A stretch of 64,000 nucleotides of DNA from Mucispirillum schaedleri ASF457. GTDB lineage: Bacteria > Chrysiogenota > Deferribacteres > Deferribacterales > Mucispirillaceae. Numbering within the stretch: the first letter of the stretch is position 1; every line of letters starts with the position of its first letter. Position numbers and translations under genes: made by a program. Under the pieces are notes generated by a model. It was not told the DNA's origin and did no database searches. It saw only the letters and a program-made list of their open reading frames with translations. Where the stretch lies: the NCBI RefSeq assembly GCF_000487995.2, contig NZ_CP097562.1, positions 1,485,001-1,549,000 of the forward strand, in the 5' to 3' direction. This document shows, in pieces, positions 1,264-64,000 of this stretch.

Positions 1264-1343
1264 TATTTTTTATAATTTGAATTTACCAAAAAAACTTAAA
1301 TAAAGCTATATAATGAATATAGCAAGATAATTAAGTCCATAAG

Positions 1344-1460
1344 GTCATACTGAGAGTGATAATGCGAAGTATCTAAAAATATAGATAATTTAAATATATT
1401 ATACATTACTGCAATATATGTAATTTAGATTTTTCGCCTTAAAATCAGGCTCAAAATGAC
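1344..1460 (-). repeat. Dispersed palindromic element, family A copy 1 (near full length)
   Basis: This is an intergenic copy of an element of about 115 bp whose ends are inverted repeats. In the reference orientation it starts GTCATTTTGAGCCTGA and ends TAGGCTCAGCATGAC. The next internal blocks (GGCGAAAAATCTAAA and the reverse complement of TTTAGATACTTCGCC) also pair, and an AT-rich middle around GCAGTAATGTATAATATATTTAAA is shared between copies. Copy 1 lies in the inverted orientation. A second, shorter inverted repeat with related ends follows at 1480-1524 (GTCAATCCTGAG ... ATATGAC). The rest of the 1264-1545 gap holds nothing I can recognise. Confidence 0.8.
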
Positions 1461-1545
1461 TGTAACTTGAAAAATGTATGTCAATCCTGAGACTGCTCCT
1501 GTGTCTTACTGAGCCTTATATGACAATATTTTTGTTAAAGTCCAT

Positions 1546-3441
1546 CTATTTTACTTTTCTTTCAGTAAATTCTACTTTAAATTTTTCCATAATCTCTATA
1601 GATATATCAAACTCTTCAAGCAGTTTTTTAATTAAGCTGCCTAAAACAGAGTAAAGCTCTTTATATTTTAAAAGCAGCAGAACATCTCTTTCAGGGCTGT
1701 CACTTTGCTTATGTTTAATGCTGTTTATATCCTGCACTACTTTTATATAAATTGACTGCACATAGTGCATTAAAATTAAATAGAAATCATTTGTAGCAAA
1801 CTTCTGGACAGTATCTTCTACTATTTTCATATTAGCTTTATATGCAGTATAGTCTTCCCCTTTTGGTGCAACATCTGTGCATCTAAGTATTTCTTCAACT
1901 ACAGCACATTTCTCTAAACTTTCGTTACATATATCAATAGTTTTATTACAGAAATCTTTAGCATGATAAAGTTTTTTTAATGTTTCTTTAATCTGCCTTT
2001 CTTTTTCTTTATGTTTTATCTGTTTTAAATGTTTTTTAATTTCAGAAGTAGTATTAATATCTTCTTTTATATACTTATCAATAGCTTCTTTAAATGTCAT
2101 AATTTGAGTGCCATGTATTTTTGCACCACCTTCTGTTGCATTAATAGCTGTCCCTTGATATGTGGCAATATCTCTTTCATAATGCAGCAGAAACTGCTTA
2201 TAAACTGGTCTTGTTTTAACTCTTTCCTGATAATTGCCTTCTACTTCAATAAGGTCTTTTTCTGTTAATTTATCGCTGCCGTAATGGAAACCTGCTGCAT
2301 GGGTAACTAAATCATCAGTAATAGCTAAATCCTGCCCTATCATAATTATAGGGTCACATCCTAAATATTCCAGCACTTTAAAAGCCATATTACCTGCTGA
2401 TGGTCCAATATCCAATATGCCTTTTTTAATATCAAGCCATTCAAATGTTGCAAACTTACGAAAAACAATAATTTTTTCGCCGGGAAAATTTGCATAAGTT
2501 TCAGGCACAACAACAGGACATGCTGCTAAATATGAATCTTTTACATCTTCTTCTGTTAAGCCTTCAAAAAGATAAGATGTTGCAATAACACGCTCTAAAC
2601 TTGTAACAAAATGAGCAGGGGGCAGATTATGATGTTTTAAAATTTTTACACTTCCATCTGCTGCACATATTACAGCTTTCTCTCTTAATCCTTCTAATAA
2701 TTTAACATTTTTATCAAGAGATGGACCAGAAGCAACAACGATACCCGGTTTCCCTTTAAATACATCTTTCAAATCAGCAATACCTGTATAATCAATAATA
2801 GTAGGAATGTTTCTTAATGTAAATTTTATACCTAAAAGGCTGTCGTATGGGTCATTTCCATAAAGCAGAAGAACCTGATTTATTGCTTCTTTAACCATTT
2901 GCAGAGAATTAAGATAGTAATCTTTATTTACTGCAAAAGATACTGGCTGCTCTATGACATTTATGGCTTTTAAAAAATACATATTAGCAGTCATATTAAA
3001 AAAATTAAATATTACAGGGTATGACATTCTTATATCTTCACATCCTGCAAAAAAAACATTTGAACTGTTTATTAAATCTAGACAATTATGTGTGCTGAAT
3101 ACTGTTTTTAAAAGTTCAGGGTCTCTTTCAATAATTAATAATCTTGCTCTTGGACACTGCCTTATATACTCACAAGCTTCATAAGAAAGCCCAAAACCTA
3201 AAAATACTGCCAAATCAGGAACATTTAATTTCCTTTGTTTTATGTCCTGCTCAGCAACACGATATGGATCTATATTATTATAAAAATTTTTATTAAATTT
3301 TATATCAATAAGAGAAGGAAGTTTATCTTTTCTTTGAGATGGTGCAACTACATATCTGCCAGTAAGCTGTGTATTATCAATAATTTGAGCTAGTCGTGGG
3401 TTGCGTTTTGCAAGTGCTTCTATATTTTTCTTATAAAGCAT
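1546..3441 (-). CDS. Motility-associated factor (Maf) glycosyltransferase, DUF115/MptE-like
   Basis: Maf proteins transfer nonulosonic acids such as pseudaminic acid onto flagellin in the cytoplasm. The 631-residue protein has the DUF115 (6-hydroxymethylpterin pyrophosphokinase-like) core around residues 200-400, with the hallmark 'VVASGPSLDKN' and, later, 'DIGPSAGNMAF' and 'IMIGQDLA'. The C-terminal 150 residues are helical and lysine/glutamate-rich. The start at 3441 has AGGAG eight bases upstream. It is the last gene of the pse operon, 11 bp after pseI, which points to pseudaminic acid as the donor sugar. Campylobacter and Helicobacter carry several maf paralogues; only one is in this window. 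The family call is sure; the acceptor is inferred. Confidence 0.85.
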   Translation of the reverse strand: MLYKKNIEALAKRNPRLAQIIDNTQLTGRYVVAPSQRKDKLPSLIDIKFNKNFYNNIDPYRVAEQDIKQRKLNVPDLAVFLGFGLSYEACEYIRQCPRARLLIIERDPELLKTVFSTHNCLDLINSSNVFFAGCEDIRMSYPVIFNFFNMTANMYFLKAINVIEQPVSFAVNKDYYLNSLQMVKEAINQVLLLYGNDPYDSLLGIKFTLRNIPTIIDYTGIADLKDVFKGKPGIVVASGPSLDKNVKLLEGLREKAVICAADGSVKILKHHNLPPAHFVTSLERVIATSYLFEGLTEEDVKDSYLAACPVVVPETYANFPGEKIIVFRKFATFEWLDIKKGILDIGPSAGNMAFKVLEYLGCDPIIMIGQDLAITDDLVTHAAGFHYGSDKLTEKDLIEVEGNYQERVKTRPVYKQFLLHYERDIATYQGTAINATEGGAKIHGTQIMTFKEAIDKYIKEDINTTSEIKKHLKQIKHKEKERQIKETLKKLYHAKDFCNKTIDICNESLEKCAVVEEILRCTDVAPKGEDYTAYKANMKIVEDTVQKFATNDFYLILMHYVQSIYIKVVQDINSIKHKQSDSPERDVLLLLKYKELYSVLGSLIKKLLEEFDISIEIMEKFKVEFTERKVK

Positions 3442-4959: not shown

Positions 4960-4982
4960 CTATTAATTTCCTTCTTATATTA

Positions 4983-5018
4983 TTAAGAAGAAAATTAATA
5001 TAATATATTTCTTCTTAA
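4983..5018 (-). promoter_or_regulatory. 11-bp-stem hairpin in the pse operon leader of pseH
   Basis: TTAAGAAGAAA (4983-4993) pairs perfectly with TTTCTTCTTAA (5008-5018) around a 14-base AT loop. It lies in the only sizeable gap of the pse operon, 24 bases before the pseH start. It has no GC core and only a weak U-run, so it may be an attenuator, an RNA-processing site or the end of the preceding short gene. The role is inferred; the inverted repeat is seen directly. Confidence 0.45.
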
Positions 5019-5064
5019 CTTGTTTATTTTATATACTGCTTTATACTTATCCAAAAATTTTGAA

Positions 5065-5250
5065 CTAAACCACTAAATAAATTTCTCTTTTCTGCAAAGG
5101 TGTAAGTCCACAGGCTGCATACCCCCCCCCATACATATAATTTATATTATTAATAGTTTTGGGTAATATCAATCTGTCGCAGCTTGTTTTTAGTGAAAGT
5201 ATTTTATAAATAAGCTGATTACTTTTTTTGCCTAAAAGATATATATTCAT
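5065..5250 (-). CDS. Short ORF of unknown function with an internal G9 tract, in the PseG position of the pse operon
   Basis: This 61-residue frame starts with an ATG that overlaps the stop of the upstream cytidylyltransferase (ATGA), so it looks like a genuine, coupled operon member. It reads about 40 residues of ordinary protein sequence, then passes through nine consecutive G (plus-strand C9 at 5122-5130, coding Gly-Gly-Gly) and stops 18 codons later. Adding one G gives a 75-residue product and removing one gives about 60 residues, so no phase opens a long frame. In pse operons this slot usually holds pseG (UDP-sugar hydrolase, about 270-350 residues). The remaining space is too short for that, and I cannot show that this sequence is homologous to PseG. 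It is a truncated or decayed gene, or a small phase-variable gene. Confidence 0.55.
   Translation of the reverse strand: MNIYLLGKKSNQLIYKILSLKTSCDRLILPKTINNINYMYGGGYAACGLTPLQKREIYLVV
5122..5130 (-). repeat. Homopolymeric G9 tract (C9 on the plus strand)
   Basis: Nine uninterrupted C on the plus strand lie within a coding frame of a surface-glycan operon in an AT-rich genome. Tracts of this type in Campylobacter and Helicobacter glycosylation genes change length by slipped-strand mispairing. Variation at this site is inferred, not shown. Confidence 0.85.
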
Positions 5251-32589: not shown

Positions 32590-32718
32590 GGGGGGGGGAG
32601 AGCAGGCTCAAAATGGCTGTAAAATGAAGGTTATATACATAAAAAAAATCATATAAAATATACTGCTTAAAAAATAAGCAGCATGGTAAAGGGCTTGTTA
32701 AATCAGAAAAAACAATCT

Positions 32719-62739: not shown

Positions 62740-64000
62740 ATGAGGTTTATGTCCACGGTATGCATTACAGCCTTGGTATCTGCCATTATGCTTCTTTCTG
62801 TCACAGAAAGTTATGCATATAAGGGAGATGAGTTTATCACACCAGACAGCTGGAACAGGCATATCACATCAAATGGTATAAAGTCAACAATGAACGGCAT
62901 ATCCTTTGGGGATACGGGTCTTCTGAAAATAGGCTTAACAACCCGTGCAAAATTAAGGTTCAGTGATGAGACAGACTTTCCAATTTATCAGTATGCCCGT
63001 CTTAGATTAAGCGGTGTTCAGGCAGGAGAAGGCGAGTTTGTGCTTAATCTTAATATGCGTGGAGCCTATGATGATACCCCAGCAATAGGCGACAGAACAT
63101 ACCACAGGTTTTACAGCGGCCTGTATGCGTCCCGCTCTTATAATGAATATACGAGAAGTGTTAAATCATTAGATGGCGATTTCAGGATATATCAAGGTAA
63201 CATAGAGCTTAAAAATGTTATTCCAATTACCGATATTTCTTTGGGCAGAATATATTTACAGCAGATAGACGGTTATAAAATAGATGGAGCTAATATTAAA
63301 TTAACCCCATCAGAATATTTTAATATAGGTGTATACTACGGTTTACCTGTGAGCTATTACAGTGATTTACAGACACAGGTAGTGGGAACAAATATAGAAA
63401 TCCCAGTAGCATCCAGCGGGACAAGTCTGAAATTAGCATACAGCTATTTTATGAAGCTCAACAGTGGGGGGGGGAATCCAGACACCCATGTAGCTAGAGC
63501 ACGGCTGGACCAGTCATTAAATTTTAATCCAATATCAGCATCCTTCTACGCAGAAGGAGACCTAATCGGCGAAGCCTTTGTATATGAAGTAGGTTTTGAT
63601 GCAGACATACATGCAAGCAAAACGGGCATATCAGCATATATCAATGGTCAAGCTACACATAATGAAAACCCAGTAAACACATATGTATCTTTATACGAAG
63701 GGATATTAAGCTCCAGCGAATATGTTATGGGCGGTTTTAAAATATCACAAGGTATAGTAGACAAACTTCTTTTAGGCATAGGCTATGAGGGCAGGTTTAA
63801 TTTCAGCACAGCTTATGGCGACCGAGATTACCACAGAGTATTTGCGAATTTAGACTTAGTGGGCTTAATTCATAGAAACAACTATCTGAGCTTAATAGTA
63901 GACTATTACAATGTTCCAGAGATAAAACATCAAAACGGCAATGAGAGAGTAGTAGGCGGCTTTAGAATGACACAGGTATTCCTTGAAAACTTAGAAGGCT
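62740..64000 (+). CDS. Outer-membrane beta-barrel (porin-like) protein with in-frame G9 tract, 3' end beyond window
   Basis: The frame is open for 420 codons to the window end. A perfect AAAGGAGG (62726-62733) precedes the ATG. The signal peptide is residues 1-26 (STVCITALVSAIMLLSVTESYA). The mature part is a run of alternating beta strands ('LRFSDETDFPIYQYARLRL', 'FVLNLNMRGAYDD', 'TSLKLAYSYFMKLN', 'GIGYEGRFNF'), as in outer-membrane barrels. Codons 243-245 are GGG GGG GGG (63466-63474). One G more or less leads to a stop within about 10 codons, so the gene is in the ON phase as written. Base use is GC-richer than most neighbours. No porin subfamily assigned. Confidence 0.78.
   Translation, partial: MRFMSTVCITALVSAIMLLSVTESYAYKGDEFITPDSWNRHITSNGIKSTMNGISFGDTGLLKIGLTTRAKLRFSDETDFPIYQYARLRLSGVQAGEGEFVLNLNMRGAYDDTPAIGDRTYHRFYSGLYASRSYNEYTRSVKSLDGDFRIYQGNIELKNVIPITDISLGRIYLQQIDGYKIDGANIKLTPSEYFNIGVYYGLPVSYYSDLQTQVVGTNIEIPVASSGTSLKLAYSYFMKLNSGGGNPDTHVARARLDQSLNFNPISASFYAEGDLIGEAFVYEVGFDADIHASKTGISAYINGQATHNENPVNTYVSLYEGILSSSEYVMGGFKISQGIVDKLLLGIGYEGRFNFSTAYGDRDYHRVFANLDLVGLIHRNNYLSLIVDYYNVPEIKHQNGNERVVGGFRMTQVFLENLEG
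63466..63474 (+). repeat. Homopolymeric G9 tract inside the porin-like gene
   Basis: Nine G, exactly in frame (three Gly codons), probably in a surface loop between predicted strands. A candidate slipped-strand switch. Confidence 0.85.

Follow-up and report, generated by a model that had tools for sequence, protein, structure and literature searches.

The window, the whole 64,000-nucleotide stretch of the Mucispirillum schaedleri ASF457 genome considered here, contains a pseudaminic acid (pse) operon on its minus strand. The operon comprises pseB (dehydratase, TIGR03589; 7203 to 8216), pseC (aminotransferase, TIGR03588; 6062 to 7219), a CMP-sugar cytidylyltransferase gene in the pseF position (PF02348; 5247 to 6062), a short open reading frame (ORF) of 61 codons (5065 to 5250), pseH (N-acetyltransferase, TIGR03585; 4486 to 4959), pseI (pseudaminic acid synthase, TIGR03586; 3452 to 4489), and, as its last gene, one for a maf/PseD-like flagellin modification protein with an MptE-like domain, recognized by a profile match (1546 to 3441). 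PseB, PseC, PseH, and PseI pass the NCBIfam equivalog cutoffs; the cytidylyltransferase is a CTP_transf_3 protein with no PseF equivalog match. The PseG hydrolase (TIGR03590) finds no match in any of ten Mucispirillum genomes, this one and nine congeners, and the PseG step may be carried out by another, unrecognized enzyme. Elsewhere in the genome, a G10 tract lies in an ATP-grasp gene (position 3040 of stretch L041). A further cytidylyltransferase gene lies close by (G000 1107079-1107804), and the two may mark another sugar cluster with its own switch.

The short ORF carries a run of nine G residues in codons 41 to 43 (5122 to 5130; C9 on the plus strand), and its ATG overlaps the TGA of the cytidylyltransferase gene, both as the preliminary description had reported. 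The product lengths given there (about 60, 61, and 75 residues) compare with 58 amino acids at G8, 61 at G9, and 75 at G10. The corresponding stop codons precede the start codon of pseH by 113, 105, and 64 nt, and none of the three overlaps pseH. The 64-kb window contains three G9 tracts, whereas dinucleotide shuffles predict 0.01, and the homopolymer at 5122 to 5130 is far longer than chance would produce.

The short ORF itself has no Pfam or NCBIfam match, and its origin is revealed by comparison with homologues. Its beginning (MNIYLLGKKSNQLIYKILS; 5194 to 5250, minus strand) corresponds to residues 1 to 19 of a formyltransferase, with a score against L027 to L030 that none of 500 shuffles reaches, and it follows the cytidylyltransferase gene just as the formyltransferase gene does in congeners. 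Directly downstream, the peptide LKTSCDRLI (5167 to 5193, minus strand) is identical at 8 of 9 positions to formyltransferase residues about 120 to 128 in the homologue alignment; its score against each of eight homologues is reached by at most 3 of 5,000 query shuffles. The junction of these two pieces implies that about 100 formyltransferase residues have been lost between them. Lost with them are the N-x-H and D motifs, which we take to be the catalytic motifs of the family and which are present in the congeners. MAFFT preferred to align the ORF contiguously to formyltransferase residues 1 to 47; that alignment is weaker than the deletion reading and inconsistent across homologues (p from 0 to 0.5). 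No clear homologue was found for the 36 bases that separate LKTSCDRLI from the tract, and orthology with the tracts of species G002 and G005 is at most tentative (best hint, p 0.028).

The end of the ORF has a different source. Its last 14 residues (GLTPLQKREIYLVV) and the bases that follow match the terminal 66 bp of an IS3-like element at 92%, as a diverged copy that comprises the transposase tail and the terminal repeat (5045 to 5110, minus strand). The element is present in about 14 genome copies, which are identical to each other over this stretch, and its transposase has integrase core domains. These comparisons show the short ORF to be a chimeric remnant instead of an intact small gene; the homologous enzymes of the congeners have about 190 residues or more. 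We also considered whether it might be a decayed pseG and rejected this reading, because PseG is recognized in no congener and the slot there holds a formyltransferase.

The slot directly after the cytidylyltransferase gene is occupied by a formyltransferase gene in 8 of 9 congeners, and in the ninth the assembly has a gap at this point; PF00551 was confirmed in the five formyltransferases tested. In the closest species, G009, contigs break exactly at the slot, on both sides of the region (L026 and L084). The formyltransferase stands without PseH in G003, G004, G006, and G007 (in G008 the contig ends inside the gene). In G001 and G002 it forms a fusion with a PseH domain, and in G005 a separate pseH comes after it. 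In G002, a G9 tract joins the formyltransferase and PseH domains in frame, giving a protein of 359 amino acids, and G8 or G10 would yield products of 197 or 190 amino acids that end after the formyltransferase. In G005, G9 ends the enzyme at 162 amino acids and G8 would give 197. By tract position, the switch that the preliminary description imagined thus appears to have a concrete form in these two sister species. Our literature search found no description of this arrangement.

The tract at the pse locus is one of 43 tracts of G9 to G11 in the single contig of 2,347,083 bp (2.35 Mb). Exact run lengths across the whole genome are bimodal (G6, 30; G7, 5; G8, 6; G9, 33; G10, 8; G11, 2). Placement was judged from the stretches around the tracts. 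ORFs contain 26 of the 43, 24 assigned by script together with those at 669011 and 991193, which fall 14 to 29 codons into open frames of more than 350 codons; the sequenced tract length leaves four of the tract-bearing ORFs out of frame. Eight more tracts separate a -35 box from a -10 box; the TTGACA is perfect in every case, the second box is TATAAT-like, and the spacing is 14 to 17 bp. Two (843007 and 2103557) lie at or just before start codons. The remaining seven, the tract at 5122 to 5130 among them, have no evident target. Most other tracts of the genome thus lie, by position, where a change in length would alter the expression or product of a functional gene. When orthologous tracts were compared between species (one genome per species), four differed by one G between M. 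schaedleri and G003 (585472, 991193, 1070453, and 1451584; 9/10, 9/10, 9/10, and 10/9). Most congeners have many tracts, with fewer in fragmented or incomplete assemblies; outside the family, most genera have few, and the relatives G036, G041, and G042 have many. Because run lengths are bimodal, tracts sit in ORFs, promoters, and starts, and lengths differ between species, we conclude that the 43 tracts are very probably a set of on/off switches and look like part of a genus-wide poly-G phase-variation repertoire. To this extent the view of the tract at 5122 to 5130 as a contingency tract of the Campylobacter and Helicobacter type finds support: it looks like one member of a genome-wide set that happens to lie in the pseudaminic acid operon.

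Several features of individual tracts deserve mention. The first quarter of the contig (G000:C1:617-585471) has no G9 tract apart from one at the very start of the contig. The eight promoter-spacer switch candidates are poly-C runs of 9 to 11 between TTGACA and TATAAT-like boxes, several of them upstream of lipoprotein genes. G10 tracts directly before or at a start codon (3008 in stretch L035 and 3058 in L059) could act as variable Shine-Dalgarno sequences. One gene family with Tat leaders has a G9 just after the leader in four members (608 in L031, 3044 in L038, 3054 in L040, and 2983 in L062), of which three are out of frame (OFF) and one is in frame; all three tested encode molybdopterin oxidoreductases, and phase-variable respiratory reductases would be unusual. 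An in-frame G9 (C on the coding strand; 2997 in L050) lies in a gene whose product is of the M66 peptidase/TagA type and has a ricin-B lectin domain.

Promoter-spacer homopolymers underlie phase variation of the Neisseria porA/opc type, which the eight Mucispirillum tracts between -35 and -10 boxes resemble. The tract at 5122 to 5130 is flanked by no adequate -35: a TATAAT adjoins it on the plus strand but, unlike in the eight true cases, no -35 box lies at a suitable distance, and we rejected a promoter-spacer reading for it.

Between the short ORF and pseH, folding prediction gives two mutually exclusive RNA hairpins (4962 to 5018, minus strand; z -4.75). One, at 5018 to 4983, competes with a second of 16 bp at 4999 to 4962, which is predicted to sequester the pseH Shine-Dalgarno sequence. 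This leader hairpin is the third strongest among 50 gene starts in the window. Species G005 has a different, unrelated predicted hairpin of 18 bp before pseH (z -4.16), which a ribosome would reach in only one of the three tract phases, G8. An effect of the tract on pseH translation or coupling is therefore possible in the model, and the persistence of the remnant at its site, with its ATGA overlap and the folded leader before pseH, might serve regulation.

We consider the most probable reading, with a probability of about 0.66, to be that the G9 is one of about 43 slippage-prone tracts and lies here in a decayed formyltransferase gene, where the local result is silent or modest. The pseudaminic acid N-formyltransferase gene would have lost about 100 central codons and gained the end of an IS3-like element. 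Slippage at 5122 to 5130 probably still occurs, moving the stop codon among three positions, and the product is presumably inactive in every frame, given the loss of the catalytic core. Locally, a change in length would most likely be silent or would modestly shift the point that ribosomes reach ahead of the pseH leader. In G005, the tract is a plausible switch of formyltransferase completeness and, in G002, of the fusion between the formyltransferase and the PseH acetyltransferase domain; formyl versus acetyl decoration may perhaps be what is switched in the sister species. A working sugar switch is more likely there than in M. schaedleri.

How much the tract does locally is where the alternatives part. 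The preliminary description saw a working phase-variable small protein whose altered C terminus modulates glycan synthesis. That view fits the location of the ORF in the pse operon, its ATGA overlap, and the placement of the tract inside the reading frame. However, the ORF is what a deletion left behind, it ends in a transposase tail and has no Pfam or NCBIfam match, and the congener homologues are full enzymes. With the catalytic core lost, the product of this ORF is unlikely to switch the sugar, and the claim that the product end is a meaningful glycan switch finds no support for this species; we regard a functional small protein as very improbable. Conversely, the tract may have no effect at all, as the fossil of an earlier switch or a passenger of the rearrangement. 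The loss of the enzyme core, the absence of any overlap between the three stops and pseH, and the six other tracts without an evident target are consistent with such a relic, but G9 is the modal length and shows no erosion, whereas a neutral poly-G would be expected to become interrupted in time. We find this quite doubtful.

It is also conceivable, though unlikely, that the short ORF serves as a leader ORF in which the tract tunes pseH translation through alternative pairings, 1:2 versus 2:3, the latter containing the pseH ribosome-binding site. In such a model, the G10 stop, 64 nt before pseH and beside the 5' arm of hairpin 1, would favor the sequestering fold. The dependence of the stop position on tract length, the strength of the hairpin with its two exclusive predicted folds, and the G8-restricted access to the G005 hairpin all point in this direction. 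However, the leader sequence is not conserved, the energies are predictions, and hairpins of such strength are not unusual in an AT-rich genome like this one, values of -15.7 kcal/mol or below occurring at 8 of the 50 gene starts. A broader proposal unites these elements: a genus-wide repertoire that includes one switch between two enzymes that may compete in acylating the pseudaminic acid precursor, with slippage choosing formyl or acetyl in the sister species, and with the tract-set stop of a leader ORF, the decayed formyltransferase gene, controlling pseH translation through exclusive hairpins in M. schaedleri. We assign this combination as a whole a low probability. Under the preferred reading of a slippage-prone tract in a decayed gene, the pse locus would illustrate how one species can be left with a switch whose gene has been lost, even though the switch persists in sister species, where it stands at a possible branch point between formyl and acetyl.

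Phase variation of this kind is known from other bacteria, and we found no report of it for this phylum; nor did we find a relevant paper on Mucispirillum phase variation or pseudaminic acid, and the main text of the published M. schaedleri genome analysis does not mention phase variation (PMC5285517). The phase-variable flagellin glycosylation genes of Campylobacter include maf1, maf7, and cj1295, and phase-variable genes with formyltransferase domains include lgrA of C. coli (G8-10) and CFT03427_1556 of C. fetus (G9-10) (PMC6321876). The likeness lies in poly-G runs of 8 to 11 in glycan modification genes, formyltransferases included (PMC6321876). In contrast, the bacteria studied here belong to another phylum, the gene in the window is a remnant, and the tracts of the sister species lie within the enzyme or where it is fused to PseH. 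The poly-G repertoire of Helicobacter canadensis, which includes C-terminal sequence switching, likewise places tracts in promoters as well as in ORFs, and others close to the ends of genes, where a change in length affects only the C terminus (PMC2823697), whereas the altered C terminus in Mucispirillum belongs to a truncated, chimeric ORF.

In a mouse-gut commensal that has been tied to inflammation in mouse models, there appear to be about 40 phase-variable loci that have not been described before, which seem to include glycan enzymes, lipoproteins, sensor proteins, and molybdenum reductases. If this is true, clonal cultures and gnotobiotic mice would contain mixed populations.

The two other G9 tracts of the window differ in setting. 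One (63466 to 63474) is in frame within a long ORF, with 242 codons before it and at least 175 after it, to the window end, and no Pfam match. The other (32590 to 32598) is intergenic and lies beside sequence that resembles window positions 1320 to 1510, apparently a dispersed repeat.
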